Source: Propioniciclava coleopterorum (GTDB lineage: Bacteria; Actinomycetota; Actinomycetes; Propionibacteriales; Propionibacteriaceae). Taken from it: a DNA stretch of 64,000 bases. This document shows, piece by piece, positions 15,914 through 63,207 of this stretch; the stretch's first letter is position 1; every line of letters starts with the position of its first letter. The DNA lies in assembly GCF_011393335.1 (NCBI RefSeq), contig NZ_CP049865.1, positions 2,312,722 through 2,376,721 of the forward strand. Reading direction: 5' to 3'. The notes under the pieces were generated by a model. It was given only the letters and a program-made list of their open reading frames with translations, made no database searches and was not told the origin of the DNA. Position numbers and translations under genes: made by a program.

Positions 15914-16929
15914 TCACCACAGGCTCGAGCCGACGAGCTTGCGGGACAGGAAGTTGGCGCTGAGCACCAACGTCAGCCCGATGACGGACTCGAAGAGTCC
16001 GATGGCCGTGGCGTAGGAGAAGTTGTTGCTGACCAGGCCGACGCGGTACAGGTACGTCGAGATGACGTCGGCGGTCTCGTAGGTCAAGGGGCTGTAGAGC
16101 AGCAGGATCTTCTCGAAACCGACCGCGAGGAACGTGCCGATGTTGAGGATCAGGAGCGTGACGATCGTGGGCAGGATGCCCGGGATCGTGACGTGCAGCG
16201 TCTGCCGCCAGCGGTTTGCCCCGTCGATGCGGGCCGCTTCGTAGAGGTTCTCGTCGATCTGCGTGAGCGCCGCGAGGTAGAGGATCGTGCCCCAGCCCAT
16301 CGTCTGCCACACGTCCGAGGTGACGTAGATGGTGCGGAACCAGCTCGCCTCCTGGATGAAGTTGATCGGGGTGCCCCCGACCGCGCTGATGAGCTGGTTG
16401 ATCGACCCCTCCAGGGAGACGATCTGCAGGATCATGCCGGCCACGATCACGATCGACAGGAAGTGCGGCAGGTAGGACGCCGTCTGCACGAACTTCTTGA
16501 ACTTCTTGCTGCGGAGCTCGTTGAGCAGCAGCGCCAGGATGATCGGCATCGGGAAGCTGACCAGCAGCGTCAGCCCGCCGAGGATCACCGTGTTGGTGAA
16601 GACCTTCCAGAACGTGGGGTCGTTGAGGAACATCTCGATGTAGCGGAAGCCCACCCAGGACTCGCCGAACATGCTCCCGCCCGGCTGGAACTTCCGGAAG
16701 GCGATGACGTTGCCGAGCATCGGCACGTACCGGAAGATCACGAAGAAGGCGAGGGGAGCAGGGCGAGCGCGTACAGCTGCCAGTCCTTGCGGAACGCCTT
16801 GCGCCACGTCACCCGGTGTTTGGGCACCTTGCGCGGCTTGCTCGCGTTCATGGCGGCGAGCACCGCGGGGTCGCCCTGGGGTTCGCCCGTGGGCAACGCG
16901 GCCGGGTCGGCCGTATTCGTCGACGACAT
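15914..16929 (-). pseudogene. Sugar ABC transporter permease (LplB/YteP type), apparent frameshift
   Basis: Second permease of the importer. The N-terminus (ATG at 16927-16929, GAGGGAG Shine-Dalgarno) is read as MSSTNTADPAALPTGEP through WRKAFRKDWQLYALALLP. The rest, LAFFVIFRYVPMLGN and onward, continues in another frame to 15914. Adding one base to the GGGG run at 16753-16756 joins them into a protein of about 338 residues with the EAARIDGANRWRQTLHVTIPG coupling motif. That length is normal for LplB. The operon around it is intact, and five other genes in this window break in the same way, so an assembly error is more likely than real inactivation. Confidence 0.8.
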
Positions 16930-16950
16930 GCCACTCCCTCGTGTCGAATC

Positions 16951-17009
16951 CGAAGTTTCGGAAAGTTTCGTCGTGTCCGAGACTAGGGGGAGCGCTTTAG
17001 TTGTGTCAA
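16951..17009 (-). promoter_or_regulatory. Promoter and repeats upstream of the importer operon
   Basis: On the minus strand TTGACA (17004-17009), an 18-bp spacer and TAGTCT (16980-16985) form a strong promoter. The spacer contains AGCGCT with a central CG, a possible LacI-type site. Between promoter and ribosome site, AAGTTTCG occurs twice exactly 10 bp apart (16953-16960 and 16963-16970), suggesting a second protein-binding site. From 17010 to 17219 I see nothing further. Confidence 0.55.
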
Positions 17010-17219
17010 TAGACTTATCCCGATTGCCCCGAGCCCCGCCTGGACGCCGACGCGCACCCGGCGAGGGCGGGGGGCGCCGCCGTTCGGGCCAGCGTGCCGC
17101 GACAAGGGCGGATGGGGATCCCCCGTGGCGGGCATTCGGGTCACGATCGGGTGACGGGGCGTCCGCGATCGGTGCCGCCGAGCCGAGGGCTCGTCGTCGA
17201 GGTGATGTCGGTGGGGGCC

Positions 17220-18311
17220 TCAGGCCGCCGGGAAGCCGATCGCCCGCGCGTGCCGGGCGAAGCGCTCGCCCAGGATCTGGTAGCCCTCGGCGCTGGGGTG
17301 CAGCCCGTCGGGCAGCAGGGCGGCGTCCGAGGGGCCGAGCAGGTCCCGCCCGTCGGTGAAGGTGAGGTGCGCGTCCTCGCGGGCGGCGAGCACCTCGGCG
17401 ATCAGGCCGCGGATCGCGCCCACGCTCAGCGCCCCGTTCACGACGTCCGCCGGGTCGCCCTGCGGGTGCGCCCGGCCCTCGGCATCGAACCAGAGCGGCC
17501 CCGGCCGGTCCTCGCCGTCGGGGAAGGCGATGGGGGAGAGCAGCAGGATCGGCGTGGCGGGCCTGCCCTCGCGGATCGTGTCCAGGAAGCCGTGCAGCGC
17601 CGGCGCGAACGTCCGTGCCGTCATCGTCGCGCCGTTCTGGATGTTGATCCCCACCGCCAGGCTGATCGCGTCGGCGTCCGAGTCGCGCAGCGTGCGGGCC
17701 ACGAACGGGTCCAGCATCGCCTGGCCGCCGAAGCCCAGGCTCTGCAGGCGCAGGCCCAGCCGGCGCGCGGCCAGCGCCGGCCAGGTCAGCAGCGGCCCGG
17801 CCGCGCCCGAGCACTGGCTGATGGAGGACCCGTAGTGCCACCATCGCGTGCGGGTGTCCTCGGGCAGTTCCCGCAGCCCGGACGCGTCCACGCCGGCGAT
17901 CTCGGTGACGCCGCCCGGCGGCAGCCACAGCTCCACGGGGCCCTCCCCGGCCGGCAGCGGCACCCGCACGTCCACGAAGGGGGCGTGGCGGTCCGGGACG
18001 CCGTCGTCGGTGAGCGTGCAGACCCGCTCGAGGGCCGCGGACGCCTCGGCGTCCCCGCGCAGCGCGGTCACGAGCTGCGGCGGCGCCGCCTCGGGGTGGT
18101 AGACGGCCGCCCGCAGCCGCAGCGTCACGGCGTCCGCCGTCGGCCACAGCCGCAGCCGCACGCCCGAGCCGCCCCGGACGCCGCGGTGCATGTCGGCGGG
18201 CACCTGCGGCACGGTCCAGCGGGGGAGCCGGCGCGGGATCACGCCCGTGGGTGTGGCCTCGAGATCCAGCGCGCCCGCGACCTCGATGCGCGGATGGGGG
18301 AGCGTGAGCAT
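17220..18311 (-). CDS. SGNH/GDSL-family esterase
   Basis: Predicted carbohydrate esterase of 363 residues with no signal peptide. An N-terminal beta-sandwich-like region (about 1-150) precedes an SGNH hydrolase domain. Block I is WHYGSSISQ (nucleophile Ser near 163), block II is SLGFGGQ (Gly near 195), block III is GINIQN (Asn 223), and the C-terminal block is DGLHPS (Asp 335, His 338). Enzymes of this architecture often deacetylate oligosaccharides, so removal of acetyl groups from imported xylo-oligosaccharides is a reasonable guess. The start at 18311 is backed by CAGGAGG. It is divergent from the GH2 gene and shares an operator-like sequence with it. Confidence 0.82.
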   Translation of the reverse strand: MLTLPHPRIEVAGALDLEATPTGVIPRRLPRWTVPQVPADMHRGVRGGSGVRLRLWPTADAVTLRLRAAVYHPEAAPPQLVTALRGDAEASAALERVCTLTDDGVPDRHAPFVDVRVPLPAGEGPVELWLPPGGVTEIAGVDASGLRELPEDTRTRWWHYGSSISQCSGAAGPLLTWPALAARRLGLRLQSLGFGGQAMLDPFVARTLRDSDADAISLAVGINIQNGATMTARTFAPALHGFLDTIREGRPATPILLLSPIAFPDGEDRPGPLWFDAEGRAHPQGDPADVVNGALSVGAIRGLIAEVLAAREDAHLTFTDGRDLLGPSDAALLPDGLHPSAEGYQILGERFARHARAIGFPAA

Positions 18312-18324
18312 CGCAGCCTCCTGT

Positions 18325-18336
18325 GAAACGATTTTG
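18325..18336. promoter_or_regulatory. Putative LacI-type operator between esterase and GH2 genes
   Basis: GAAACGATTTTG is an imperfect palindrome centred on CG that resembles the AAAACGTTTT site at 7856. It lies in the 87-bp gap between two divergent hydrolase genes. Confidence 0.35.
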
Positions 18337-18398
18337 TTACGCTGTGATCCTAAAGCCTCGAGCCCGTCCGGCGCCCGCCGCCGCCCAGGAGGAACCCG

Positions 18399-22135: not shown

Positions 22136-22181
22136 CTTTTGTATTTTCAAAAAACTTATACTGTGCATGCTCTACAGTCAA
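22136..22181 (-). promoter_or_regulatory. xylA promoter with putative XylR operator
   Basis: On the minus strand TTGACT (22176-22181), 15 bp, then TATAAG (22155-22160) and, 4 bp on, TTGAAAATACAAAAG (22136-22150). The last element shares 10 of 15 positions with the site at the same place before xylB. Confidence 0.5.
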
Positions 22182-22252
22182 GGGCAATCGCACGGACCCG
22201 ACGCCGACCCCGAAGCCTGGCGCGCGGCCGATCAGGAGACGATGGAGGAGCA

Positions 22253-23473
22253 GTGGCCAGCTATCGCGTGGGGCGTCCCGTGCCCGACGAGCGCCCCGAC
22301 GCGGTGCGCCAGTCGAGCCTGCGGTCGCTCAACCTCGCCACCGTCATCCAGCGCGTGTTCGGGGCGTCGGCGCCCCTGTCGCGCGCCGACGTCGCCGCCG
22401 ACACGGGCCTGACCCGCTCGACGGTGTCGCGGCTGGCCGACGACCTGATCGCCGGTGGCCTCATCTCCGAGAGCGAGCCGCAGACCGACGGCCAGCGCGG
22501 CCGCCCCGCCGTGCCGCTCGTGCCGGCGGGGCTCACGTGGTTCGCGCTGGGGCTCGAGATCAATGTCGGTCGGCTGTCGGCGCGCGTGATCGACCTGACC
22601 GGGCAGACGCTGGCCTCCGAGGTGGCCGACGTCGACCTGCGCGACTCCCAGGCCGAGCCGGTGATCGCGCAGTTGGGGGAGATGGCGCGGCGCGTCCTGT
22701 CCTCGGCGGACGTCGGCACCACGCTGGCGGGCGTCCAGGTGGCGCTGCCCGGCCTGGTGGACGTCGACGCCGGCGTCCTGTTGCGGGCGCCCAACCTGGG
22801 CTGGTGGGACGTGCGTCCGCGCGAGGCCCTCGCCGCAGCCCTCGACCTCGACCCCGCCCTGATCGGGGTCGGCAACGAGGCCGACTTCGCGGCCGAGACG
22901 ATCGCCTGGGACGCCCCGGGCCGGCCCTCGGACATCGGCGAGTTCCTCTACGTCTCCGGCGAGGTCGGCATCGGGTCGGCCCTGGTCACCTCGGGCAAGG
23001 CGATGGCCGGCGGCCACGGCTGGGCCGGCGAGATCGGGCACGTCTGCGTCGACCGGCACGGCCCGGTCTGCGCGTGCGGGGCGCGCGGGTGCCTCGAGGC
23101 GTACGTCGGGCAGGCCGCGCTGAGCGCGACGGCCGGCACCCGCGACACCGACGAACTGATCGAGCGGCTCGCGGCCGGCGACGCCCGCGCGCTGGAGGCC
23201 GTGACGGAGGCCGCCGAGACCCTGGGCGTCGTCCTGGCCGGCGCGCTGAACCTGCTGGACGTCGCCCGCGTCGTGCTCGGCGGTCACCTGGGACGCCTGG
23301 CCGCGCACCTCATCCCCGGCATCGAGACCGAACTGCAGCGCCGCGTGGTGGGGGCGCCGTTCGAGGCGCTGTCGGTGACCTCGGTGCCCGACGACCGCGA
23401 CATGCCCTCCCTCGGCGCCGCCTACGTGGCGCTGCATCGCGTCCTGGACGACCCCGCCCCCTGGCTGGCCTGA
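22253..23473 (+). CDS. xylR: ROK-family transcriptional regulator (XylR-like)
   Basis: Repressor of 406 residues with an N-terminal winged helix-turn-helix (about 25-75, with ADVAADTGLTRSTVSRLADD) and a C-terminal ROK sugar-binding domain. The ROK zinc motif is CACGARGCLE (Cys 273, 275, 280), and the acidic sugar-site residues are in GHGWAGEIGHVCVD. The GTG at 22253 has GGAGG 5-7 nt upstream; earlier in-frame codons run back into xylA regulatory sequence. Being divergent from xylA, it most likely represses xylA and xylB until xylose binds. Confidence 0.88.
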   Translation: MASYRVGRPVPDERPDAVRQSSLRSLNLATVIQRVFGASAPLSRADVAADTGLTRSTVSRLADDLIAGGLISESEPQTDGQRGRPAVPLVPAGLTWFALGLEINVGRLSARVIDLTGQTLASEVADVDLRDSQAEPVIAQLGEMARRVLSSADVGTTLAGVQVALPGLVDVDAGVLLRAPNLGWWDVRPREALAAALDLDPALIGVGNEADFAAETIAWDAPGRPSDIGEFLYVSGEVGIGSALVTSGKAMAGGHGWAGEIGHVCVDRHGPVCACGARGCLEAYVGQAALSATAGTRDTDELIERLAAGDARALEAVTEAAETLGVVLAGALNLLDVARVVLGGHLGRLAAHLIPGIETELQRRVVGAPFEALSVTSVPDDRDMPSLGAAYVALHRVLDDPAPWLA

Positions 23474-23637: not shown

Positions 23638-25625
23638 TCAGTCCTCGGGCCAGATCGTCACCTCGTTGCGGCCCGCGGTGAGGCCGAACAGCGGGCCGGC
23701 GACGGCGGGCGCGTCGCGCCGCTCCCCGAGGAGGTCGACGTCGAGCACCAGCGGCGAGCCGTCCGGGTTGTCGAACTCGGCGTCCACCATGCGCACGCGC
23801 GGCAGGTCGGCCGTCGTGACGACGCCGAACCGGTGGTCGGCGACGGCCGCCGGCAGGGTGATCCCCAGCGTGACGACGCCGTCGACGTCGGTGACCCGCA
23901 CGTCGGCGTCCTCGTCGCTGACGACCGCGCCGGTCTCGCCGGCGTAGGGCCGGGCGCCGCCGAGGTAGACGTTGTCGCGCAGGTACACCGGGTTCTTGAG
24001 GTTCCAGTAGACGTTGACGTCGCCCGGGAGCGCGGCGCGCACCGCCCCCATGTACTCCTCGAACGAGGCCGGGTGGCCGTCGTAGATGCCGGTGCCGTAG
24101 GTGATGAGCGCGTCCGGCCACAGCTTCGCGTCGTACGCCTGCGCGACCTCGGTCGGGTCGCCGCCGTTGCCGACGAACACGTTGCCGATCCAGCGGTCGT
24201 CGCCGCCGTAGATGGACGCGTACCCGGCGACCTCCGTCGAGTGCGGGACATGGTAGGGCGTCGGACGCTCCATCACGGGCTGCAGCAACACGGTGCCGGC
24301 CACGAGGTTGCCCACGTAGGCGCCGCCGTCGCTCATCGTCTCGATGGCCGCGGGGGAGGCGAACACGTTGTGGTCGACCACGTAGGGCCCGTGCGACACC
24401 TCGACGTAGAGGTCGCGGCTGTTGCCGTGCAGCACGTTGCGGGAGATCCGCGTGCCCTGGGTCTGCCAGTCGCTCCAGATCCCGAGCGCGCAGTCGTGGA
24501 TGTGGTTGCCGACGATCTGGACGTCGATGGCGGCGTGCAGCTTGATGCCGCCGATCTCGTGGCCGTAGAACTCCCGCTTGGTGGCGACCGTGTGGATCTC
24601 GTTGCCCTCGATCGTGCTGAATACGCAGCCCAGGTGCCCGACGATGCCGTTCTGGCCGCAGTCGTGGATCAGGTTGTTCCGCACGATGTGCGAGCCGATC
24701 CGCTCCTTGTTCCAGCCGTACTGCCGCGCCGTGAAGACCGACTCGAGCTGGTACTGGTAGCCGGGCTTGTCGAGGCGGTGGGTGAAGTAGTTGTCGCCCG
24801 TCGAGGCCTCCTTGCCCAGCGACACCGCCGAGCACTTGGCGTCGTGGATGTGGTTGTCCTCGATGATCCAGCCCTTGGCCCAGTTGGGGCCGATCAGGCC
24901 CGGCTGGTCGGCCGTCGGGGGCGCCCACGGGGTCGCGGCGTGCGCCAGCTCGAAGCCCCGCACCGTGATCCAGTCGACGTGGTTGCGGCGCGGGTAGAAC
25001 ACCGAGCGGCGCACGTTGATCTCGACCAGGGCGGCGCGGGGGTCGGCGTCGCCCACGTTCACCCGGATCGTCGTCTCGTCGGTGCCGACTTCGGCGTGCC
25101 AGACCAGCAGCGTCCGGTCCGGGTCGGCGATCGGCATCACCTGGCCGGTCCGGTCGTCGACCACGGTCTCGCGCCGCTCGGGGACCGGAGCGCGTCGAGG
25201 TCGCCCGCCTCGTACAGGCTCACCCCGTCGAGGTAGACGTCGCCCAGATGGACGCGGGTGCCCGGCTCGAGCGGCCGCACCACCCAGTCACCCGCCAGTT
25301 CGATGGCGAACGGGTTCCAGTCGCCGAACAGGGCGTTGGGCACCGACGCGCGCCAGACCCCGTCGCCCTCGTCCTCCCAGCCGGTCACGGCCTCGGAGCC
25401 CTTGATGACGACGTGCTCGCCCTCGGCGGCGGCGTAGGTGATGCGCCGGCTGTCGCTCAGGCCGCCCCGACGGGGGTCGACCCACTCGCGGTACTCGCCG
25501 CCGTGCACCAGGACGGTGTCCCCGGGGAGGGCGAGTTGCGCGGCGTGGTTGATGGTCCGCCAGGGCGTCGCCTCGCTGCCGTCGGCTTGGTCCGACCCGC
25601 TCGTGCTGACGTGATAGACGGTCAT
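23638..25625 (-). pseudogene. Right-handed parallel beta-helix protein, apparent frameshift
   Basis: Predicted carbohydrate-active beta-helix protein of about 662 residues if repaired. The N-terminal part (ATG at 25625) reads MTVYHVSTSGSDQADGSEA and WRTINHAAQLALPGDTVLVHGGEYRE, a typical start for Pel9A-like or DUF1565-type proteins. After about residue 150 the frame changes at the GGGG run 25180-25183; one extra base restores PERRETVVDDRTGQ onward to 23638. The later part has repeated NxIHD coils such as IIEDNHIHDAKCSAVSLG and NNLIHDCGQNGIVGHLG. No clear signal peptide is seen. It may be a polysaccharide lyase, epimerase or binding protein. It stands in a decaying region, so true loss is possible here, although the break type matches the other suspected assembly errors. 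Confidence 0.75.
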
Positions 25626-25641
25626 GGCTTCCTTTCATCGT

Positions 25642-32475: not shown

Positions 32476-33723
32476 ATGACGAGCCCGCCCCCGCGCGCGC
32501 TGTCGGCGCGCGTCGGGATCGTGCTGCTCGTCGTCGCCGGGTTGTCGTGGGGGACCTCCGGGGTGCTGGGGACGCTGCTGGTGCGCGCGTCCGGCCTGCC
32601 GTTCCTGAGCGTCGCCGCCTACCGCATCCTGGTCGGGGGGCTGCTGCTGACGGGATTCGCCCTCGCCGGACGCCGGTTCAGGCCGCCGCGGACGCGCGCG
32701 GGGATCCTGCGGATCGCGCTGCTCGGCGGGGCGTCCGCGGTGTTCCAGCTCGCGTTCTTCAGCGCGGTCGGCGCGGTGGGGGTGTCGGTGGCGACCCTCG
32801 TGGCGATCGGGTCGGCGCCGGTGTTCGTGCTGGTGGTCGACCTCGCCACGGGGCGGCAGCGCCTGCACCCGCGCCTGGTGGCCGCGCTCGCGTGCACCGC
32901 GGCGGGCCTCGCGCTGTTCATGGGGACGCCGCCGGCGGGCATCGACCCGGCCGAGGCGCTGCTCGGCTGCGGGCTCGCGGTGGTCGCGGGGGCGGCGTTC
33001 GCGTCCATCAGTCTGCTCGGCGCCCGGCCGCACCCGGACTTCGACGACGTCACCGGGACGGCGCTGGCCTTCGGGCTGGGCGGCCTCGTGGTGCTGGTCG
33101 TCGCGGCGGCGTCCGGCGGCCCGATCGCCTTCGCCCCGACGCCGGCGTCCGTGGCGCTGGTGCTGCTGCTGGGCCTGATCCCCTCGGCGGTGGCCTACTT
33201 CGCGTACCTGACCGGTCTGAAGGCGCACAGTTCCACCACCGGCGTCCTGGTGTCGCTGCTCGAGCCGGTGACGGGCGCGGTGCTCGCCGCCGTCGTGCTG
33301 GGGGAGCGGCTGCCGCCCGCCGGGCTCGTCGGCGCGGGGTTGCTGCTGGCGGCGGTGGCGCTGGTGGCGTGGCCGCCGCGCGGCTCAGCGCGAGAGGTGG
33401 ACGCAGCAGGCGCCGGGCTCGGCGAAGGGGATCAGCTCGGCGTCGGCGTCCCCGAGGTGGCCTGCACGAGCCCGGCGTGGATCGCGCACACGACCCCCGT
33501 GTGGGCCTCGGCGGCGTCCAGGAGGGGGCAGGTGTGGAGCCGGATGGTCCGGTCGGCGACGGCGGGGGAGAACCCCAGATCCTCGAGCAGCCGGACGGCC
33601 GCCTCGGGTGACGGCGCGTCGGTCTTCGCCGCGCCCCACTCGCGCCCGATCGCGCGGGCCTGCGCGGCGGAGTCCGGGGACTCGTCCAGGTGGGCGGCCA
33701 CCGCGCTGACGAGTTCGACGTAG
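32476..33723 (+). CDS. EamA/DMT-family permease
   Basis: Membrane exporter with two EamA domains and ten predicted helices, from ARVGIVLLVVAGLSWGTSG to LLLAAVALVAWPP (about residues 300-305). The motif LLEPVTGAVLAAVVLGERL is typical. Substrate probably an amino acid or metabolite. No stop occurs where the family ends, so the frame reads on for about 110 codons antisense to the HTH regulator gene. If the CCCC run at 33450 has lost a base, as the regulator implies, the protein would end near 33611 instead. A TACGGT -10 box lies 9 nt before this ATG, with a GTG at 32473 as alternative start. Confidence 0.8.
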   Translation: MTSPPPRALSARVGIVLLVVAGLSWGTSGVLGTLLVRASGLPFLSVAAYRILVGGLLLTGFALAGRRFRPPRTRAGILRIALLGGASAVFQLAFFSAVGAVGVSVATLVAIGSAPVFVLVVDLATGRQRLHPRLVAALACTAAGLALFMGTPPAGIDPAEALLGCGLAVVAGAAFASISLLGARPHPDFDDVTGTALAFGLGGLVVLVVAAASGGPIAFAPTPASVALVLLLGLIPSAVAYFAYLTGLKAHSSTTGVLVSLLEPVTGAVLAAVVLGERLPPAGLVGAGLLLAAVALVAWPPRGSAREVDAAGAGLGEGDQLGVGVPEVACTSPAWIAHTTPVWASAASRRGQVWSRMVRSATAGENPRSSSSRTAASGDGASVFAAPHSRPIARACAAESGDSSRWAATALTSST

Positions 33724-34019
33724 GCGCTCACGGCGGGATCGCCACGTAGCGCCGACCGTCCCGCCCTGGTCAGGGTGTACCCCATCGCCGGACGCCCGCG
33801 GCCCGAGCGGGGGAGCGGCTCCGCGGACGCCAGGCCCGCCGCAACCAGGCCCTCGAGGTGGGCGCGCGTCGCGTTCGGGTGCCCGCCCAGCCGCTGCGCC
33901 AGGGTGGCCAACGGGACGCCGGCGCCCAGCTCGTCCAGCGCCGCCGCGACCCGGGCGCGCGCGGGCGGCAGCGGCTCGCCGGCCTGCAGCCGGGCGGGTC
34001 CCGTGCGTCGCGTCGTCAT
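33385..34019 (-). pseudogene. HTH transcriptional regulator with C-terminal cysteines, apparent frameshift
   Basis: Predicted regulator of 211 residues if repaired. The N-terminal winged helix (about 20-85, with ATLAQRLGGHPNATRAHLEGLVAAGLA) resembles ArsR/SufR-type DNA-binding domains. The C-terminal part has HTCPLLDAAEAHTGVVCAIHAGL, then breaks at the CCCC run 33450-33453. With one extra base it ends DAELIPFAEPGACCVHLSR, as relatives do. The cysteines (C-x13-C and C-x26-CC) could hold an iron-sulfur cluster as in SufR. It is divergent from the nitrite/NO operon, which makes it the likely controller of that operon. TATGCT (34026-34031, minus strand) ends 6 nt before the ATG, so the mRNA appears leaderless. 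Confidence 0.7.
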
Positions 34020-34138
34020 GGGAACAGCATAGTGGAATAAATACAAGGACATGTGTAAGAATGACGGCGACGGTCGGCCCCGGCCGGACTCAACGGGGCC
34101 GACCGCCCACGAACCGCCACACCAACGGAGAAGAGAAC

Positions 34139-34420
34139 ATGAGCGAACTGCCCGTCGTCGAGCGCCCCACCTGCGGCTGCGGCCACCACGACGAGGACCT
34201 GCCCGTCCTGGACGCCCGCGCCATCCCGCACGCGATCCGGCACGCCGCCATCCTCGGCTCCCTCGCCTCCCTGACCCCGGGTGGCGCCATGGCGCTCGTC
34301 GCCCCGCACGACCCGCTGCCCCTGCTGGCGCAGATCCGCGACGCCTACGGCGACGCCATCGAGGTCAGCTACCTGCAGCGCGGCCCGGAGTCCTGGACCC
34401 TGAAGTTCGCCCGCCTCTGA
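34139..34420 (+). CDS. DUF2249 protein
   Basis: Small soluble protein of 93 residues. The DUF2249 domain (about 20-93) has LDARAIPHAIRHAAILGSL, then PHDPLPLLAQI and a closing GPESWTLKF, like SirA/TusA-fold proteins. The N-terminus carries CGCGHHDED, a Cys/His-rich stretch that might bind metal. DUF2249 genes often accompany nitrite and NO reduction genes, and this one opens the operon with the NnrS-like and NirK genes. GGAGAAGAG is the ribosome site. Confidence 0.85.
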   Translation: MSELPVVERPTCGCGHHDEDLPVLDARAIPHAIRHAAILGSLASLTPGGAMALVAPHDPLPLLAQIRDAYGDAIEVSYLQRGPESWTLKFARL

Positions 34421-38302: not shown

Positions 38303-38610
38303 CGGTCGGGTGACCCCCCCGGGCGCCACGACGAGGAGGCTGCCGCGTCGAGGTGCGCTTGGCTCCAGATGCGAGCCCACCAACCTGCTGATGGGCGGGC
38401 TGAGCGTCGTCGTCACCGGCTGCTCGGCCGCCTCCGGCGCGCCCGCGCCTGCCGTCCGCCACGGCGGCCTGGTCGGCCTCGCGGCGCGGGTCTGCATTGC
38501 GTGGGCTGCGCCGCGCGGTGGGCCCGCGTGAAATACCCTGGCGGGAGTGTGGGCCCGGGCATCCCTGACCGGTGGCCTGGGAGTGATCGGGCAACCGGAA
38601 GGAAGCGGAC
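38303..38610. other. Gap before the restriction-modification genes
   Basis: I see no credible gene here; a 73-codon open frame at 38310 lacks a ribosome site and family features. TACCCT (38534-38539) may be the -10 box for hsdM. This is the left junction of the probable acquired type I cassette, but no repeat or integrase trace is visible. Confidence 0.4.
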
Positions 38611-40557
38611 GTGAGTCAACTCGGCGGGTTCATCTGGGGCATCGCGGACCAGTTGCGGGGGGTGTACAAGCCGGCGCAGTACGGGACGGCGACGCTCCCG
38701 TTCCTGATCCTGCGCCGGATGGAGTGCGTGCTGGCCGACCACCGGGCGGAGATCAACGCTCTGGCCGCCACGACCCCCAACGATGACCTGCTGGCGGCCA
38801 AGCTGCGCCGCGACTTCGGGGTGCACTTCTGGAACCGGACCGACTACACGTTGGCGTCGCTGCTGGGTGACCCGGAGAACCTGCGGGAGAACGTGCTGGA
38901 CTACGTGGCCGGGTTCTCGGCAAACGTGGCCGACATCTTCGAGAAGTTCGGCTTCGACAAGACGGTGGGCAAGCTGGTCGAGAACGATCGGCTGTACCTG
39001 GTCGTGGAGGCGTTCGCCGGTATCGATCTGCACCCGGATCGGGTTTCCAACGCCGACATGGGGGAGGTGTTCGAGCACTTGATCTTCAAGTTCTCCACCG
39101 CCTCCAACGAGACCGCCGGTGAGCACTTCACCCCGCGGGACGCGATCCGGCTGATCGTGGACCTGGTGCTGGCCCCCGATGATGACGTGCTGGCCACCCC
39201 GGGCACGATCCGCAGCATCTACGACCCGACCGCCGGGACCGGCGGCATGCTGAGCGTGGCCGAGGAAGCCATCTGGGAGATGAACGATCAGGCGGTCGTC
39301 ACGTTGGCCGGGCAGGAACTCAACGACGAGTCGTATGCGGTGTGCAAGTCCGACATGATCGCCAAGGGGCAACGCGTCGACGCGATCCGCCTCGGGGACA
39401 CGCTGCGCAACGACCTGCACGCGGGCACCACCTTCGACTACTGCCTGTCGAACCCGCCCTACGGTGGCGACTGGAAGGCCGCTGCGGCGGTGGTGCGCAA
39501 GGAGAGCGAGAAGGGTGGGGGCCGGTTCGACGCCGGGCTGCCGCGCATCTCCGACGGCCAGATGCTGTTCCTGCAGCACCTGGTCTCCAAGATGCGGCCC
39601 GCGCAGGCCGGGGTGGCCAACTCGGGCGGCCGGGCCGGGATCGTGCTGAACGGGTCGCCGCTGTTCACCGGTGGCGCCGGGTCGGGGGAGTCCGAGATTC
39701 GCCGGTGGCTGATCGAGTCCGACCTGGTGGACTGCATCGTCGCCCTGCCGACGAACATGTTCTACAACACCGGGATCGCCACCTACGTGTGGATCCTGGA
39801 CAACGCCAAGCCGGCGCAGCGCCGCGGCAAGATCCAGCTGATCGACGCGACGGCCCGCTGGACGAAGCTGCGCAAGAACCTGGGCTCGAAGAACCGCGAG
39901 ATCGGTGAGCAGGACCGGGCCGCGATCGTGGAACTGTACGAGGCGTTCACCGACACCGAGGAGTCGAAGATCCTCGAACCGGCCGACTTCGGGTTCTGGG
40001 AAATCACCGTCGAGCAGCCGCTGCGGCTCCGCTTCGAGGTGACCCCGGAGGCGCTCGAGGCAGTCCTGGAGGCCAAGCCCGTCGCCAAGCTGAACCCGGC
40101 CGACCAGCAGGCTCTACGGGCCGCCCTGGACGCCCTGGCGGGCCAAACGTGGACGAACCGGGACGCGTTCGTGAAGGCGCTGCGCAACGCGCTCACCGCG
40201 CAGCGGATCACCCTGGCCGCCCCGGTGATCAAGGCGGTGTGGCAGGCGGTCGGGGAGCGCGACGAGACCGCCGACATCTGCACCGGCCCCAAGGGCAGCA
40301 TCGAAGCCGACACGGACCTGCGCGACACCGAACTGGTTCCGTTCCGCGACACGATCGAGGACTACTTCGCCCGCGAGGTCACCCCGCACGTGCCGCAGGC
40401 GTGGATCGACCACTCCAAGACGAAGGTGGGCTACGAGATCCCGTTCACCCGACTGTTCTACAAGTACGTCCCGCCGCGCCCGCTGGCCGAGATCGACGCC
40501 GACCTGGACCAGCTGGCCGCCGAGATCATCGCCATGCTGCAGGCGGTGGAGGGATGA
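38611..40557 (+). CDS. hsdM: Type I restriction-modification system, methyltransferase subunit
   Basis: Adenine-N6 methyltransferase subunit of 648 residues that works with HsdS to methylate and with HsdR to cut DNA. The N-terminal HsdM_N helices are followed by the N6-methyltransferase domain with AdoMet motif DPTAGTGGML (Asp 205) and catalytic NPPYGG (Asn 281). EHFTPRDAIRLIVDLV (about 171-186) is the conserved lead-in. The GTG start has AAGGAAG upstream. The stop overlaps the start of hsdS (ATGA). Confidence 0.95.
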   Translation: MSQLGGFIWGIADQLRGVYKPAQYGTATLPFLILRRMECVLADHRAEINALAATTPNDDLLAAKLRRDFGVHFWNRTDYTLASLLGDPENLRENVLDYVAGFSANVADIFEKFGFDKTVGKLVENDRLYLVVEAFAGIDLHPDRVSNADMGEVFEHLIFKFSTASNETAGEHFTPRDAIRLIVDLVLAPDDDVLATPGTIRSIYDPTAGTGGMLSVAEEAIWEMNDQAVVTLAGQELNDESYAVCKSDMIAKGQRVDAIRLGDTLRNDLHAGTTFDYCLSNPPYGGDWKAAAAVVRKESEKGGGRFDAGLPRISDGQMLFLQHLVSKMRPAQAGVANSGGRAGIVLNGSPLFTGGAGSGESEIRRWLIESDLVDCIVALPTNMFYNTGIATYVWILDNAKPAQRRGKIQLIDATARWTKLRKNLGSKNREIGEQDRAAIVELYEAFTDTEESKILEPADFGFWEITVEQPLRLRFEVTPEALEAVLEAKPVAKLNPADQQALRAALDALAGQTWTNRDAFVKALRNALTAQRITLAAPVIKAVWQAVGERDETADICTGPKGSIEADTDLRDTELVPFRDTIEDYFAREVTPHVPQAWIDHSKTKVGYEIPFTRLFYKYVPPRPLAEIDADLDQLAAEIIAMLQAVEG

Positions 40558-41791
40558 GCTTTCGCGAACTCCGCCTGAGCCGGGTCGCGCGGATCAAACT
40601 CGGGAAGATGCTTCAAACGGAGCCGGCAAGCGGGGCAGACATTGAGGCCGACTATCTGCGTGCGGCACACGTTCAGCCGAACGGCTTGATCTTGGACCTG
40701 GGCGATGACCAGCGCATGTGGTTCGGACCCAAGGAACTCCTTGATCACGACCTTCGGGCCGACGATGTGGTCATTGTCGAAGGAGGGGCTGGCTACGGTC
40801 GGAGCGCGCTCATCAGGACGCCGCGTCCCGGTTGGGGCTTCCAGAACTCGATCGTTCGGGTGCGCCCCAAACCTGGCATCGCTGATGGTGCGTTTCTGGA
40901 CTATGTCCTGCAAGCTCGCCTTTTTGACGGCAGCATTCCGCTCGTGTGCAGTACCGCCACGATTCCCCACTTCACCGCCGAGAAGGTTGCAGCCTTTCCG
41001 GTCCCAGTCCCGCCCCTCTCCGAGCAGCAGGCGATCGCCGACTTCCTCGGCCGTGAGACCGCGAAGATCGACGCGCTGATCGAGAAGCAAACGGCGCTCA
41101 TCGAGCGGCTGCGCGAGCGGCGTGACTCTGTGTGGTCACGCCTGTACCAAGCCGTGGAGTCCGATGAGGTCCCCGTCCGGCGGATGGTCAGTTCGCTTGT
41201 TGACGGGCCGTTTGGGTCGTCGCTCACGTCGGCCCACTACTCCGAGGCAGGTGTCCGGGTTATCCGACTGGGCAACATCGGAATCAACGAGTTCCGGGAT
41301 GAGGACCAGGCGTTCGTCTCAGAGGCCTATGGCCATCAGCTGTCGGCGCACAGCGCCCTTCCTGGCGATGTCGTCATGGCCGGGCTCGGCGATGAACGTA
41401 TGCCGCTAGGTCGGGCGGCGGTAGTGCCAAGCGGGCTTGGCTCGGCGATCGTCAAGGCTGACTGCTACAGGCTCCGTCCGATCCCGGGCGTCCTGGCCAG
41501 CTACTTGGCCTGGGCGCTGTCGGCACCTCCGGTTCGTCCCCAAGCGTTGGATCTTTCGCGGGAGCAACCCGCTCACGGCTGAACACATCGCTCGCTCGGC
41601 GGATCACGGTGCGAGTCCCCAGCTACGCCCGGCAGAAAGATCTGATGGCCGAGTGGGAGGAGCACACCGCGAAGATCGACGCGTTGATCGCGAAGGCGGA
41701 GCGGTTCGTGGAGGTGGCGCGTGAGCGTCGTTCTGCTCTGATCACGGCCGCGGTGACCGGCCAGCTCGACATCACCGGGAAGGCAGCATGA
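40554..41791 (+). pseudogene. hsdS: Type I restriction-modification specificity subunit, apparent frameshift
   Basis: Specificity subunit with two target-recognition domains and two helical spacers. The first half ends with PPLSEQQAIADFLGRETAKIDALIEKQTALIERLRE, shown here in part, and the second domain starts near VPVRRMVSSLVDGPFGSS. The frame closes early at 41582. One extra base in the CCCC run 41538-41541 restores VGSFAGATRSRLNTSLARR and the closing helix AEWEEHTAKIDALIAKAERF, ending at 41791. That gives about 412 residues, normal for HsdS, with its stop overlapping hsdR. If the break were real the complex would lose its second spacer. Base composition is less GC-rich than hsdM and the core genes, as expected of an exchangeable subunit. 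Confidence 0.85.
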
Positions 41792-44700
41792 GCGCGCAGC
41801 ACCGGGAGAAGACGTTCGAGGACGAGCTGGTTGCTCATCTGGCGGCGCACGGGTGGGAGTACAGCCCTGACGACGACGGCTACGACGTGGACCGGGCGCT
41901 GTATCCGCCGGATGTGGAGGCGTGGCTGGCCGGCACGCAGCCGCAGGAGTGGGACAAGCTGGTCAAGCCGTCCTTCAGCCCCGAGGCGCAGCGCAAGGCC
42001 GTCGACAGCTTGTTGACCCGGCTGGCGAAGGTGCTCGATCAGGACCCGAAGGTCGGGGGCGGAAGCCTGGCGGTGCTACGGAAGGGCTTCAAGCATCAGA
42101 CGGCCAGCTTCACGATGATGCAGCGGCGCCCCGAGCAGACCGTGAACGAGACGATCAACGCCCGGTACGCGGCGAACCGGCTGCGGGTGATGCGGCAGGT
42201 GCACTACTCGGTGAAAAAGCCGGCGCTGTCGTTGGACCTGGTGTTCTTCGTCAACGGCATCCCGGTGGCGACCGCGGAGCTGAAGACCGACTTCACCCAG
42301 TCGATCAACGACGCGAAGCGGCAGTACCTCTACGACCGGCCGCCGGCTGGCGAGCCGCTGCTGGGGTTCGGTAGCCGGGCCTTGGTGCATTTCGCGGTGT
42401 CCAACGACGAGGTGTGGATGACGACCCGGCTGGCCGGGGAGCAGACCCGGTTCCTGCCGTTCAACCGGGGCGTTGCCGGGCATGCGGGGAACGGCGCCGA
42501 TGAGGACGGCGGCAGCCCGACCAGCTACCTGTGGCGCGACGTGCTGGCCCGGGATGCGTGGCTCGACATTCTGGGCAAGTTCATCCACTACGAGACGACC
42601 CAGCACAAGGACCCCGACACCGGAGCGGTGGCGTCCAGCCGCGCGCTGATTTTTCCCCGCTTCCATCAGCTCGATGCGGTCACCCGCCTGGTCGCCGATG
42701 CCCGCGTGAACGGGCCCGGCCAGCGGTACCTGATCCAGCACAGTGCCGGATCAGGGAAGACGCGTTCGATCGCGTGGACGGCGCATCGGCTCGCGACGTT
42801 GCATGATGCGGCGAACAAGAAGGTGTTCGACACCGTGATCGTGGTGACCGACCGAACCGTCCTGGACGATCAGCTGCAGGAGGCCGTCAAACAGATCGAG
42901 ACCACCTCCGGGGTCGTGGCCACGATCAGCAAGCGGGAAGCATCCAAGGAATCCTTCTCGTCCAAGTCGGCCTACCTGGCCTCGACCTTGGCCGGCGGCA
43001 AGCTCATCGTGGTGGTGACCCTGCAGACGTTCCCGTTCGTGTTGGAGGCGATCCGGCAGAACAAGGCGCTGGCGGGCAGGTCGTTCGCTGTCATCGCCGA
43101 TGAGGCCCATTCGAGCCAGACCGGGCAGGCGGCGGCGAAGCTGAAGCAGGTGCTCTCAGCGCAGGAGTTCGCCGACCTGGCCGACGGCGGCGAAGTCGAC
43201 GTCGAGGCGGTCCTGGCCGCCGATGCTGCGGCTCAGGCCGACGCCCACAACATCAGCTTCGTGGCCTTCACGGCGACCCCGAAGGCGAAGACGATCGAGC
43301 TGTTCGGCACCCGCCAGGCGGACGGTTCGCCGCCGCGCGCGTTCCACGTGTACACGATGGCCCAGGCGATCGAGGAGGGCTTCATCCTCGATGTGCTGGC
43401 CAACTACACCAGCTACTACACCGCCTGGCAGTTGGCCAAGAACGCCGAGTCGAATGGATTGCCGGTCGTCCGCACCGACGAGGAGGGCAACCTGGTCGAC
43501 CAGGACGCCGCCAGGAAGGGGCTGCTGCGCTGGGTGAAGCTCCACCCGACCAACATCGCCCAGAAGGTGGCGATCATCGTGGAGTTCTTCGAGGCGAACG
43601 TGAAGCATCTGCTCGACGGGCAGGCCAAGGCGATGGTGGTGACCGACTCCCGCATGGCCGCGGTGCGCTACAAGCGTGCCATCGACGCCTACATCGCCAA
43701 GCAGGGCTACTCGGACGTGGCCACGCTGGTGGCGTTCTCCGGGGAGGTCGTCTTCTCCCCGTCCGATCTGCTGCCGGAGGACGCCGGCACGCTGATCGCC
43801 GATGAGCCCTACACCGAGTCCACCATGAACCCCGGCGTGAAGGACCTGCGGGGCGCGTTCGACACCGACGAGTACCAGGTCATGATCGTGGCGAACAAGT
43901 TCCAGACCGGATTCGACCAGCCCAAGCTGTGCTTCATGGCCGTCGACAAGCGCCTGGATGGTGTGGCGACCGTGCAGACCCTTTCCCGGCTGAACCGGGC
44001 GCTGCCGGGCAAGAAGACGATGGTGCTGGACTTCGTGAACAACCCCGACGACGTGCTGGCGTCGTTCCGGCAGTTCTACGCCGAGGCCGAACTGTCGGGC
44101 ACCACCGACCCGAACCTGATCCACGACCTGGCCACCAAGCTCGATCTGACCGATATCTACTGGGCCGACGAACTCGGACATGTGGTGGAGGTGTTCATCC
44201 AGGGCTTGGGCAACAACGCGCTCGCCGGTGCTCTCCAGCCGGTCAAGCACCGCTACATGGCCCAGTGGAAGGCGGCCCACTCGGGCCACGACAAGGCGAA
44301 GGTGAACGAACTGGACCAGTTCCGCAAGGACGTCAGTTCCTATGTGCGGCTCTACGACTTCATCTCTCAGGTGTTCGCGTTCGAGGACACCGACGTGGAG
44401 AAGCACGCCATCTTCTACCGGCTGCTGGCGCCGCATCTGCGCACCGACCAGGCGGACACCCCCGTGGACCTGACCGGCGTGACGCTGCCGCTCATCTACC
44501 AGAAGAAGACCGGCGACAAGCAGGACCTGGGCTTGGCCCAGGCGCCGGCCGCCGACCCGATGAAGCCCATCACCGGGGTCGGGACCAAACCGCCACGCGA
44601 ACCGCAGGATGTGTTGTTGGAGCGGGTCATCCAAGAACTCAACGCCAAGTTCACGGGGGAGGACTTCCGCGAAAGCCAGGTGAAGGCGTGGGTGGCGGCG

Positions 44701-44937
44701 CTGACCGAGGCGCTGCGGGAGGACCAGAGCCTGGTCGCCCAGGCGAAGGTGAACAGCCTGGAGCAGTTCCTGGCCTCCCCGTCGCTGCACGACGCCGTCA
44801 TGCTGGCCGTGGCAGAGACGCACGTGGCGCAGGGGCGGATGGCTGAGTTGTTCGGTGAGAAGGGTGCGGTCGAGCAGGCGGTCCTGGAGGCGCTCGGGGA
44901 GATCTTCTACCGGGATGAGCACGACGCGAAGAACTGA
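41788..44937 (+). CDS. hsdR: Type I restriction endonuclease subunit
   Basis: Motor and nuclease subunit of 1049 residues. The N-terminal PD-(D/E)xK nuclease domain contains LDLVFFVNGIPVATAELKT (Glu 164, Lys 166). The helicase core has HSAGSGKT (318-325), DEAHSSQTG (from 438), and VAFTATPKAKT as motif III. A second RecA domain has VANKFQTGFDQPKL and TLSRLNRALPGKK. The C-terminal region binds the methylase complex. The start overlaps the hsdS stop, so the three genes form one operon. Confidence 0.95.
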   Translation: MSAQHREKTFEDELVAHLAAHGWEYSPDDDGYDVDRALYPPDVEAWLAGTQPQEWDKLVKPSFSPEAQRKAVDSLLTRLAKVLDQDPKVGGGSLAVLRKGFKHQTASFTMMQRRPEQTVNETINARYAANRLRVMRQVHYSVKKPALSLDLVFFVNGIPVATAELKTDFTQSINDAKRQYLYDRPPAGEPLLGFGSRALVHFAVSNDEVWMTTRLAGEQTRFLPFNRGVAGHAGNGADEDGGSPTSYLWRDVLARDAWLDILGKFIHYETTQHKDPDTGAVASSRALIFPRFHQLDAVTRLVADARVNGPGQRYLIQHSAGSGKTRSIAWTAHRLATLHDAANKKVFDTVIVVTDRTVLDDQLQEAVKQIETTSGVVATISKREASKESFSSKSAYLASTLAGGKLIVVVTLQTFPFVLEAIRQNKALAGRSFAVIADEAHSSQTGQAAAKLKQVLSAQEFADLADGGEVDVEAVLAADAAAQADAHNISFVAFTATPKAKTIELFGTRQADGSPPRAFHVYTMAQAIEEGFILDVLANYTSYYTAWQLAKNAESNGLPVVRTDEEGNLVDQDAARKGLLRWVKLHPTNIAQKVAIIVEFFEANVKHLLDGQAKAMVVTDSRMAAVRYKRAIDAYIAKQGYSDVATLVAFSGEVVFSPSDLLPEDAGTLIADEPYTESTMNPGVKDLRGAFDTDEYQVMIVANKFQTGFDQPKLCFMAVDKRLDGVATVQTLSRLNRALPGKKTMVLDFVNNPDDVLASFRQFYAEAELSGTTDPNLIHDLATKLDLTDIYWADELGHVVEVFIQGLGNNALAGALQPVKHRYMAQWKAAHSGHDKAKVNELDQFRKDVSSYVRLYDFISQVFAFEDTDVEKHAIFYRLLAPHLRTDQADTPVDLTGVTLPLIYQKKTGDKQDLGLAQAPAADPMKPITGVGTKPPREPQDVLLERVIQELNAKFTGEDFRESQVKAWVAALTEALREDQSLVAQAKVNSLEQFLASPSLHDAVMLAVAETHVAQGRMAELFGEKGAVEQAVLEALGEIFYRDEHDAKN

Positions 44938-44992: not shown

Positions 44993-46173
44993 TCAGCCGA
45001 CCCCGACCTGCAGCAGGCGTCCGCCCGCGCCGTCCTCCAGCAGCCACAGCGAACCGTCGGGGCCCTGCTGCACGGCGCGGATCCGGTTCCCCAACGGGAC
45101 GGTCTGGGTGGCGACGGCGCGGCCGTCCTCGAGGTCGACCCGGAGCAGCGCCTGGCCCGACAGCGCGCCCAGCAGCGCGTCCCCGCGCCACGCCGGCACG
45201 GCGTCCCCGGTGTAGAGCAGCAGCGATCCGGGCGACACCGACGGCGTCCACCAGGCCGACGGGGCGACGAACCCGTCGCCGTCGGCGTGGTCGGGGATCT
45301 CGCCGCCGCCGTAGTGCGAGCCGTTGGACGCCCGCGGCCAGCCGTAGTTGCCGCCCGGCTCGATCAGGTTGAGTTCGTCGCCGCCTTGGGGGCCCATCTC
45401 CGAGGCCCACAGCCTGCCGGCCTCGTCGAAGTCGAGCCCCAGCACGTTGCGGTGCCCGTAGCTCCAGATCGCCTCGGCACCCGGCCGGTCGGCGAACGGG
45501 TTGCCCGGCGCGGGGGTGCCGTCGGGCAGCAGCCGCAGGATCTTGCCCAGGGTGGTCGACAGGTCCTGGGCGGGCTCCATCTTCTGCCGGTCGCCCGAAC
45601 TGACGAACAGGTGGGCGCCGTCGGGGGAGAACGCCAGTCGGTGGCTGAAGTGCCCACCGCCCGACGTCGGGGGTTGCCGCCAGATCGCCGTGAGACCGTC
45701 GAGTCGGGCGGCGTCGCCGTCGACGGTGAGGCGGCCCCGGCCGACGACCGCGCCGGACGCCGACCCGTCGCCCTCGACCCAACTCAGGTACACCGTGCCG
45801 TCCTCGGCGAAGGTCGGCCCCGGCACGACGTCGCCCAGTCCGCCCTGCCCTGCCACCCGGACGCGCGGCGTGCCCGCCACGGCCAGTTGCTTCCCGGACG
45901 CCGGGTCGATCAGGTGCAGGGCGCCGGTGCGCTCGGTGACGGCCAGCCAGGGCGTCCCCGGAAGGAAGGCCATCGCCCAGGGCTCGTCGAACGTGGCGCG
46001 CTCCGTCGTCATCACGGAGGGGGAGCCGTGCCGCCCGAGGTCCCGGTCGCTCCCGGCGACGGGGCCGTGACCGGCGGCGGCGACGGTGGGTTCGCGGGAC
46101 CGGACGCGGTGCAGGCGGTCGCCGACAGCACGCCGGCCAGGGCCAGCGCGGACGCGGCGATCCGGGGGTTCAT
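44993..46173 (-). pseudogene. PQQ-dependent sugar dehydrogenase lipoprotein, apparent frameshift
   Basis: Predicted soluble-type glucose/sorbosone dehydrogenase on the cell surface, about 393 residues if repaired. The N-terminus (ATG at 46173) is a lipoprotein signal, MNPRIAASALALAGVLSATAC, with a Pro/Gly linker. The catalytic part begins MTTERATFDEPWAMAFLPG in a different frame. One extra base in the GGGGG run 46019-46023 joins them. Six-bladed propeller motifs include SHRLAFSPDGAHLFVSSGDR, GHRNVLGLDFDEAGRLW, EMGPQGGDELNLIEPGGNYG, shown here in short form. Residues such as the catalytic His and Arg are in those motifs. If no repair is assumed, translation from the internal ATG at about 46012 would give a cytosolic protein, which is unlikely for this family. 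Confidence 0.8.
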
Positions 46174-46266
46174 GTCCCGACGCTACCCGGACGCCCCCAA
46201 TCCCCGGCAAGCCCCGGGACGCCGTTCGCCGCGGCCGCGCCCCAGGAGCGGCGAGATCGTTCCCCC

Positions 46267-46312
46267 TTGCGCTCGGCAAAACCCGGGTCTAACCTACAAC
46301 CAAATGGTTGTA
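46267..46312 (+). promoter_or_regulatory. arsR-type promoter with palindromic operator over the start codon
   Basis: TTGCGC (46267-46272), 17 bp, TAACCT (46290-46295), then ATG 8 nt later. TACAACCA/TGGTTGTA form a perfect 8-bp inverted repeat with a 2-bp centre (46295-46312) that covers the transcription start and the start codon. It is a likely autoregulatory operator. Confidence 0.6.
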
Positions 46313-58939: not shown

Positions 58940-58942
58940 ATC

Positions 58943-59911: not shown

Positions 59912-59934
59912 CCCGGGCGTGGCGATAACGCCGC

Positions 59935-59940
59935 TATGAT
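59935..59940 (+). promoter_or_regulatory. -10 box of the sortase gene (leaderless)
   Basis: TATGAT ends 7 nt before the GTG at 59948; the ATG at 59936 lies inside this box and is not the start. Confidence 0.5.
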
Positions 59941-59947
59941 GGCCCGC

Positions 59948-60634: not shown

Positions 60635-60664
60635 CCGCCGACGGACCGCTGTTCCGCCAGCCGG

Positions 60665-60670
60665 TAGACT
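60665..60670 (+). promoter_or_regulatory. -10 box of purF-purM (leaderless)
   Basis: TAGACT ends 8 nt before the GTG at 60679. Confidence 0.45.
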
Positions 60671-60678
60671 CCCGTCAC

Positions 60679-62151
60679 GTGACCTGTACGGACGCTGTGC
60701 GCTTCGACCCCGTCGGTGACCCCAAACCCAATGAGGAATGTGGGGTGTTCGGCGTGTGGGCGCCGGGCGAGGAGGTCGCCAAGCTCACCTACTACGGCCT
60801 GTTCGCGCTGCAGCACCGCGGCCAGGAGTCGGCCGGCATGGCGGTCAGCAACGGCGACCGCATCATGGTGTTCAAGGACATGGGGCTCGTCTCCCAGGTG
60901 TTCGACGAGCCGACGCTCAACTCCCTGACCGGGCACCTGGCCATCGGGCACGACCGCTACTCCACGACCGGCGCGTCGGTGTGGAAGAACGCGCAGCCCA
61001 CCTTCCGTTCGACGCACAACGGCGGGCTGGCGCTGGCCCACAACGGCAACCTGACCAACACCGAGGAACTGGAGGCCTGGCTGCGCTCGCGCGACGAGCA
61101 CGCCAAGATCATCGCCAAGGACTCGATGGACTCCACCAACGACACCTCGCTGGTGACCGCGCTGCTGGCGACCTTCCCCGGCACCACCTGGGACGCCGCG
61201 CTCAACGTGCTGCCGCGGCTCGAGGGTGCCTTCTGCTTCACCTTCATGGACTCCTCGGCGCTGTACGCCGCCCGCGACCCCCAGGGCATCCGCCCCCTGG
61301 TGCTGGGACGCCTCGAGCGCGGCTGGGTCGTCGCGTCCGAGACCGCGGCGCTCGACATCGTGGGCGCGACGTTCATCCGCGAGGTCGAGCCCGGCGAGCT
61401 GATCGCCATCGACTCCGGCGGCCTGCGCTCGGTGCGCTTCGCCGAGGCCAACCCGAAGGGCTGCCTGTTCGAGTACGTCTACCTGGCGCGCCCCGACACC
61501 GTCATCGCCGACCGCCGCGTCCACTCGGTGCGGGTGGAGATCGGCCGGACGCTGGCCATGGAGGCCCCGGTGGACGCCGACCTGGTGATCCCCACCCCCG
61601 AGTCGGGCATCCCCAGCGCCATCGGCTACGCGGAGGCGTCCGGCATCCCCTACGGGCTCGGGCTGGTCAAGAACTCCTACGTGGGGCGCACGTTCATCGA
61701 GCCCTCCCAGACGATCCGTCAGCTCGGCATCCGGCTCAAGCTCAACCCCATCCGGGACGTCATCGAGGGCAAGCGGCTCGTCGTGGTCGACGACTCGATC
61801 GTGCGCGGCAACACCCAGCGCGCGCTGGTGAAGATGCTGCGCGAGGCGGGCGCCGCCGAGGTGCACGTCCGGATCAGCTCGCCGCCCGTGGAGTGGCCCT
61901 GCTTCTACGGCATCGACTTCGCCACCCGCGCCGAGTTGATCGCGCCCGGCATGTCGACCGAGGAGATCTGCCGCTCGATCGGCGCGGACTCGCTGGCCTA
62001 CATCAGCCTGGAGGGGCTCGTCGCCTCCACGGGCGTCCCGAAGCGGCGGCTGTGCCGCGCGTGCTTCGACGGGCAGTATCCGTTGCCGGTGCCCGCCGGC
62101 GTCGCCGAGGAGATGCGCCTCAACGTGCAGCAGGAGGAGACCGATGAGTGA
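60679..62151 (+). CDS. purF: Amidophosphoribosyltransferase
   Basis: First enzyme of purine synthesis, 490 residues, using glutamine and PRPP. The N-terminal nucleophile is Cys 21 in NEECGVFGVW, so a 20-residue propeptide would be removed. The glutaminase domain has HNGNLTN and GHDRYSTTG. The phosphoribosyltransferase PRPP loop is VVVDDSIVRGNTQ. RRLCRACFDGQYP gives two of the cysteines of the iron-sulfur cluster typical of the Bacillus-like form. The end overlaps purM by 8 nt. Confidence 0.96.
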   Translation: MTCTDAVRFDPVGDPKPNEECGVFGVWAPGEEVAKLTYYGLFALQHRGQESAGMAVSNGDRIMVFKDMGLVSQVFDEPTLNSLTGHLAIGHDRYSTTGASVWKNAQPTFRSTHNGGLALAHNGNLTNTEELEAWLRSRDEHAKIIAKDSMDSTNDTSLVTALLATFPGTTWDAALNVLPRLEGAFCFTFMDSSALYAARDPQGIRPLVLGRLERGWVVASETAALDIVGATFIREVEPGELIAIDSGGLRSVRFAEANPKGCLFEYVYLARPDTVIADRRVHSVRVEIGRTLAMEAPVDADLVIPTPESGIPSAIGYAEASGIPYGLGLVKNSYVGRTFIEPSQTIRQLGIRLKLNPIRDVIEGKRLVVVDDSIVRGNTQRALVKMLREAGAAEVHVRISSPPVEWPCFYGIDFATRAELIAPGMSTEEICRSIGADSLAYISLEGLVASTGVPKRRLCRACFDGQYPLPVPAGVAEEMRLNVQQEETDE

Positions 62152-63207
62152 GCCCACCAGCGCCTACGCCGCGGCCGGCGTGGACATCGAGGCCGGGGAC
62201 CGCGCCGTCGAACTGATGAAGGCCCACGTGGCCCGCACGCGGCGTCCCGAGGTGCTGGGCGGCCTGGGCGGCTTCGCCGGCTTCTTCGACGCCTCCGCCT
62301 TCAAGAACTACGACCACCCGGTGCTCGCCACGTCCACCGACGGCGTCGGCACCAAGGTCGCGATCGCGCAGGCGCTCGACAAGCACGACACGATCGGCTT
62401 CGACCTCATCGGGATGCTCGTGGACGACCTGGTCGTCGTCGGCGCCGAGCCGCTGTTCGTCACCGACTACATCGCAACCGGCAAGGTCGTCCCCGAGCGG
62501 ATCGCCGCGATCGTGCAGGGCATCGCCGCCGCGTGCGAGGCCGCGGGTGCGTCGCTGCTCGGCGGCGAGACCGCCGAACACCCCGGCCTGCTGGACCCCG
62601 ACGAGTACGACATCGCCGGCGCCACGACCGGCGTCGTCGAGCGCGACAGGATCCTCGGCCCCGACCGCGTCCGCCCCGGCGACGTGGTGCTGGGCCTGGC
62701 GGCGTCCGGGCTGCACTCGAACGGCTACTCGCTGGTGCGGCACGTGCTGCTCGAGCGGGCGGGCTGGGCGCTGGACCGCGACGTCCCCGAACTGGATCGG
62801 ACGCTGGGGGAGGAACTCCTGACCCCCACGCGCGTCTACGCCCGCGACATCCTCGCCCTGATCGACACCGCCCCCGTGCACGCGATCAGCCACATCACCG
62901 GCGGCGGCCTGGCCAACAACCTCGTGCGGGTGCTGCCCGCGGGCGTCCGCGCGACGCTGCGGCGCGACTCCTGGACGCCGGCCCCGATCTTCTCGCTCGT
63001 GCAGCAGGTCGGAGGGGTCTCGCAGGCCGACATCGAGGCCACCCTGAACATGGGCGTCGGCATGGCGCTCGTCGTCCCGCAGGACTCGGTGGACGCCCTC
63101 GCGCGGGAGGCGTCCGAGCGCGGGCTGGACCCGTGGGTGATGGGGAGGTCTCGGCCGCCGAGGGCGAGGCCACGGTCGCGTTGGTCGGCGAGCACGGCGG
63201 CGCGTAG
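62144..63207 (+). pseudogene. purM: Phosphoribosylformylglycinamidine cyclo-ligase, apparent frameshift near the C-terminus
   Basis: AIR synthetase, converting FGAM to AIR with ATP. The first 330 or so residues are intact: STDGVGTKVAIA, GMLVDDLVVVGAEPLFVTDY, LLGGETAEHPG and ISHITGGGLANNLVRVLP. After DPWVMG the frame is lost at the GGGG run 63142-63145. One extra base gives EVSAAEGEATVALVGEHGGA and a stop at 63207, total 354 residues, the normal length. Without it the protein would carry a foreign tail to 63361. All other purine genes here are intact, so a sequencing or assembly error is more likely than loss. Confidence 0.88.

Follow-up and report, generated by a model that had tools for sequence, protein, structure and literature searches.

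Why should six good genes within one stretch of a bacterial chromosome each break at a short run of G or C, and why should a single added base be enough to rescue each of them? The question is raised by a stretch of 64,000 nucleotides (bases 2,312,722-2,376,721, hereafter the window) of the 3,671,901-base, single-contig genome of Propioniciclava coleopterorum. By purF, its nearest named relatives include P. flava, P. sinopodophylli, P. soli, and P. tarda. Are the bases absent from the bacterium, or only from its published sequence? A preliminary description of the window offered two readings, a homopolymer-shortened consensus and a clone in a slippage-mutator state. Here, we weigh these readings and several others against the window, a sample of the rest of the genome, and the genomes of relatives.

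Six frame breaks in the window

All six breaks were found exactly where they had been described, at G/C runs of 4 to 5 bases (Table 1). In our by-eye reading of the translations on both sides, the protein resumes at each of the six sites in the frame that fits one missing base, a shift equivalent to two extra bases modulo 3.

Table 1. Frame breaks at G/C runs in the window (window coordinates).
Gene	Run	Position	Strand	Open stretches and location of the break
lplB-like permease	GGGG	16753..16756	-	15917-16996 and 16741-18336, in two frames
GH120-like beta-helix protein	GGGG	25180..25183	-	23641-25287 and 25140-25634
HTH regulator	CCCC	33450..33453	-	33435-34364 and 33388-34089; near C-terminal end
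hsdS	CCCC	41538..41541	+	39909-41579 and 41462-41788
Sugar dehydrogenase	GGGGG	46019..46023	-	Between lipoprotein leader (46015-46182) and glucose/sorbosone dehydrogenase domain (44996-46288)
purM	GGGG	63142..63145	+	61940-63358 and 62152-63204; C-terminal end

Independent backing is strongest for the beta-helix protein, purM, and the sugar dehydrogenase. In the beta-helix protein, the PF21258 domain is divided over two frames (model positions 67-121 in the first open stretch of Table 1 and 1-62 in the second), alignment with the protein of relative G011 gives a frame jump of the one-base-short type, and the one relative alignment available carries a net extra base. When purM is set against relatives in 17 distinct alignments, 15 show a net extra base, one no change, and one the opposite. 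The leader of the sugar dehydrogenase is in frame with the enzyme in relatives and in a different frame here; the GSDH domain itself is whole in a Pfam search, and the net change is absent from the single DNA alignment that spans the break. The HTH regulator has a net extra base in two of three relative alignments and the opposite in the third. For the permease and hsdS, the predicted breaks come from the protein reading alone: the Pfam domains BPD_transp_1 and Methylase_S were found only on the downstream and the upstream piece, respectively, and no alignment with relatives crosses either break. The region at 38300-44937 carries type I restriction genes, hsdS and an HsdR-like gene, and among 16 relatives searched it has DNA matches at an E value of 1e-30 in G004, G007, and G021 only.

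All six genes had been described as broken. The breaks are present in the sequence of all six, but their severity was overstated for two. The uncorrected purM frame still spans positions 2-328 of the 332 of TIGR00878, and the frame of the HTH regulator is altered at the C-terminal end only; because these breaks alter only C-terminal ends, neither gene need be inactive as written.

The pattern beyond the window

Is the pattern confined to the window? A codon-model Viterbi decoder, which allows frame changes but charges for each of them, was run on the window and on twenty 20-kb stretches taken from across the chromosome. Together these make up 464 kb, with the stretches outside the window amounting to about 11% of the genome. 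The scan returned 44 frame changes other than proper gene joins, 39 of them of the one-base-short type. Removal of possible gene overlaps left 41 strict events, 36 short and 5 extra (binomial p about 8e-7 for the short excess). The same scan of six relatives gave 9 strict breaks in 763,747 bp: 6 in 400 kb of G001 (4 short), 2 in 100 kb of G008 (neither short), 1 in 100 kb of G015 (short), and none in 164 kb of G005, G009, and G011. Short events are evenly distributed among the 20 stretches (mean 1.9 and variance 2.3 per 20 kb, which is near-Poisson), fall on both strands, affect G runs as well as C runs, and hit the sampled genome irrespective of gene function. Thus, the wider count that the preliminary description had called for makes the six sites a local sample of a recurring pattern. 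Extrapolated to 3.67 Mb, the scan implies roughly 320 breaks, a number that may be low because the scan has low sensitivity.

That sensitivity can be gauged in the window itself. The first codon-model setting gave no events there, the main setting detected one of the six sites (near 25180, flagged as a possible gene overlap), and a lower penalty detected three, together with further events at 22277 (short), 35577 (short, possible overlap), and 53140 (minus strand; extra, possible overlap). The event at 22277, on the plus strand, lies near the start of a gene at 22139-23470 for which no clear N-terminal piece was seen. At the lower penalty, the strict events numbered 44 short and 7 extra in the 464 kb, against 8 short and 5 extra in the 400 kb of G001, a weaker contrast with the relative. 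The five extra events of the main strict set could each represent two shortened runs, which are equal to one extra base modulo 3; a run of at least 5 lies near 4 of the 5. In one apparent gene (L033:10569-11989), two successive extra changes occur, which could be pairs of shortened runs.

Comparison with relatives

We used tblastn to align the predicted proteins of five congeners with the DNA of P. coleopterorum and with one another's DNA. The P. coleopterorum DNA gave 15 frame-changing places over 108,090 covered bp, every one of them short, and the five congeners gave no frame jumps over 512,042 covered bp; both totals include repeat counts of bases where loci overlap. Some of the P. coleopterorum stretches aligned with extra relatives had been chosen as event-rich; this choice inflates the rate, but the direction should be unaffected. 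An earlier, smaller set was likewise one-sided: 79,309 bases gave 8 jumps, all of them short, and the relatives gave none. The 36 of 41 strict events put the claimed short direction beyond chance, and the protein alignments supply the comparison with close relatives that had been proposed. Two other counts were set aside. A tblastn search without composition correction gave mostly spurious matches in this GC-rich DNA and was left out, and a DNA-level net frame count against relatives (36 short, 37 extra) was replaced by the protein-based one because it included intergenic DNA.

Could six accessory genes, unrelated to one another, simply have decayed into pseudogenes in the ordinary way? The hsdS, permease, and beta-helix genes belong to dispensable classes, and the permease stretch has no DNA match at an E value of 1e-30 among the 16 relatives. 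Decay, however, would mix stops, insertions, and larger deletions, and the pattern recurs over the sampled genome, with conserved genes included. We reject decay, to which we would assign only a very slight chance; the short direction and the break counts relative to those of related genomes contradict it.

Run context and run lengths

If single bases were dropped from homopolymers, do the breaks lie at such runs? A G/C run of at least 4 lies within 25 bases of 36 of the 39 short events and all 5 extra events, against 41% of random positions, and within 14 bases of 32 of the 39 short events; neither count uses hand-set windows. At a finer scale, we examined 20 sites, namely, 14 of the 15 homology sites and the six window sites (the fifteenth homology site being the beta-helix break in the window). 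A run of at least 4 lies within 12 bases at all 20, against 30% of random stretches of the same size, with the windows of 6 of the 20 sites set by hand. Over these sites, 69 of 81 alignments with relatives carry a net extra base, 6 show no net change, and 6 show the opposite. Three of these six opposite alignments come from one site (L037, position 16710), where the DNA alignments stand 3 to 1 against a missing base and the proteins of three relatives still give a short jump. Among the 69 alignments that carry the extra base, just 13 show a longer unbroken run, a low number that is to be expected where third codon positions vary. From this context, we infer that the missing base would have belonged to the G/C run.

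Run lengths point the same way. The ratio of six-base to five-base G/C runs is 0.061 here and 0.11 to 0.18 in six relatives, and six-base runs number 15.7 per 100 kb here and 18 to 50 in the relatives, with G008 close at 18.0. The GC content is about 73% (72.6% in the sampled parts). The two rRNA operons differ in the 3' part of the 16S gene by a G run of 5 versus 6 beside a substitution (L281, about 1011-1015, and L282), and their remaining differences are substitutions and spacer changes; the 5/6 difference could be an error or real variation.

Type I specificity genes are sometimes phase variable, a point in favor of programmed or phase-variable frameshifting at G/C runs. Yet the runs are just 4 to 5 bases long, the frame is unbroken at the sites in most relatives (the 69 of 81 alignments above), and no function is common to the affected genes. 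On these three grounds, we reject both programmed frameshifting and phase variation, for which we see next to no chance.

Genes hit elsewhere in the genome

Which genes carry breaks outside the window? For 35 of the 44 events, we compared the pieces one by one with NCBIfam (E-value limits of 1e-3, 1e-3, 1e-30, and 1e-10); for 17 of 39 in-frame pieces, there was no match at the limits used. The clearest division is in dxs, which is cleanly split over two frames (model positions 5-442 and 444-612 of 616). No second copy over the cutoff was found in the genome, where a weak match elsewhere covers only positions 433-614, and all 9 other genomes carry a full-length open copy. In an actinobacterium without the mevalonate route, dxs would be essential. 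HemW and a LutB/LldF protein are divided over two frames in the same manner. Dihydropteroate synthase (folP) has most of its length in one frame and shows a short jump against the proteins of four relatives, and aconitase loses its last codons only. A molybdopterin oxidoreductase at L036:5966-9149 lies in three frames, with two short breaks; its best NCBIfam match, the tetrathionate reductase TtrA, falls far below the cutoff.

Might the bases truly be missing from an organism that carries hundreds of -1 slips in its G/C runs and tolerates frameshifts genome-wide? Its functional proteins would then have to arise by transcriptional or translational slippage at the runs, and we regard this as very improbable.

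A slippage mutator?

The preliminary description's second reading has a plausible basis in actinobacterial biology. In a real slippage-mutator lineage, a DinB-type polymerase would make -1 slips in G/C runs, NucS repair of the actinobacterial type would leave them uncorrected, and a bottlenecked strain would have fixed hundreds of them. Both the direction and the run context fit. Passages of a study of mycobacteria (PMC9346131) name DinB1 as the chief source of the -1 frameshifts that arise spontaneously in short homopolymers, those of C and G included, and report that NucS leaves indels uncorrected. Common to both cases are -1 slips, short runs, and an actinobacterium with NucS. Because DinB1 makes -1 slips and NucS leaves indels, direction alone is no proof of error; the preliminary description was right that the direction is one-way, but as proof of error it is weaker than claimed, given that, in these passages, mycobacterial DinB1 favors -1 too.

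What, then, speaks against a mutator? DinB1 mutagenesis differs from the pattern here in that +1 slips are also produced. According to the same passages, -1 frameshifts are only about twice as common as +1 in Mycobacterium tuberculosis isolates, and slips per 1e8 cells number 10 to 74 for +1 in 5-base runs and 5 to 18 for -1 in 4-base runs (PMC9346131). Here, insertions are nearly absent, and all 15 homology events are short. Selection should also remove slips in needed genes, an expected sparing that is contradicted by the split in the only full-length dxs. The five congeners have no frame jumps. The C-terminal domain of NucS, the one repair protein that we examined, is complete in a 234-amino-acid open frame, as in two relatives. 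Finally, by our own arithmetic, for roughly 2 to 3% of 5-base runs to be shortened in the absence of selection, about 1e5 or more generations would have to pass at the wild-type rate, or about 1e4 with DinB1 overexpressed. We consider a slippage-mutator clone unlikely, with a small chance at best, given that dxs is split, that insertions are almost absent, and that the relatives are clean.

A probable homopolymer-shortened consensus

In total, the observations outlined above make it very probable, in our judgment, that the breaks are consensus errors from a homopolymer-shortened assembly, the first of the two readings in the preliminary description. Several observations favor it: of the assemblies compared, this one alone shows the excess; the breaks lie in the context of runs; dxs, folP, and hemW are among the genes hit; relatives have intact frames; and the ratio of six-base to five-base runs is low. 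In this model, the assembly would under-count some G/C homopolymers by one base, as is typical of long-read-only or insufficiently polished assemblies, and each base lost from coding sequence would shift the frame; therefore, intact genes would look like pseudogenes. We infer that the cause lies in sequencing and consensus, and that the consensus was probably built from long reads only.

Similar errors have been described. In passages of one study of long-read bacterial assemblies, indels are mostly false deletions and are commonest after runs of 4 to 5 bases (PMC12007338), and in a passage of another, leftover homopolymer indels give rise to frameshifts (PMC8812927). As in the unpolished assemblies described there, the changes here are single-base deletions that fragment genes and are not shared with relatives. 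One difference concerns the Kastor case (59% GC), for which the passage in PMC12007338 gives A/T-run errors as about twice as common as G/C-run errors; here, G/C runs alone were examined.

Meaning for the genome and for Actinobacteria

The breaks are likely not a genuine biological feature of P. coleopterorum. The approximately 320 apparent frameshifts that we extrapolate are likely false, those in dxs, folP, and hemW among them. Because they are likely false, statements about gene loss, auxotrophy, or pseudogenes in this organism are unsafe until the assembly is polished, and the caution over pseudogene calls urged in the preliminary description was sound. For Actinobacteria, an argument from one direction alone cannot tell assembly error from biology; needed genes and relatives can. 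Many of the apparently dead genes of this genome are probably intact in the living bacterium.
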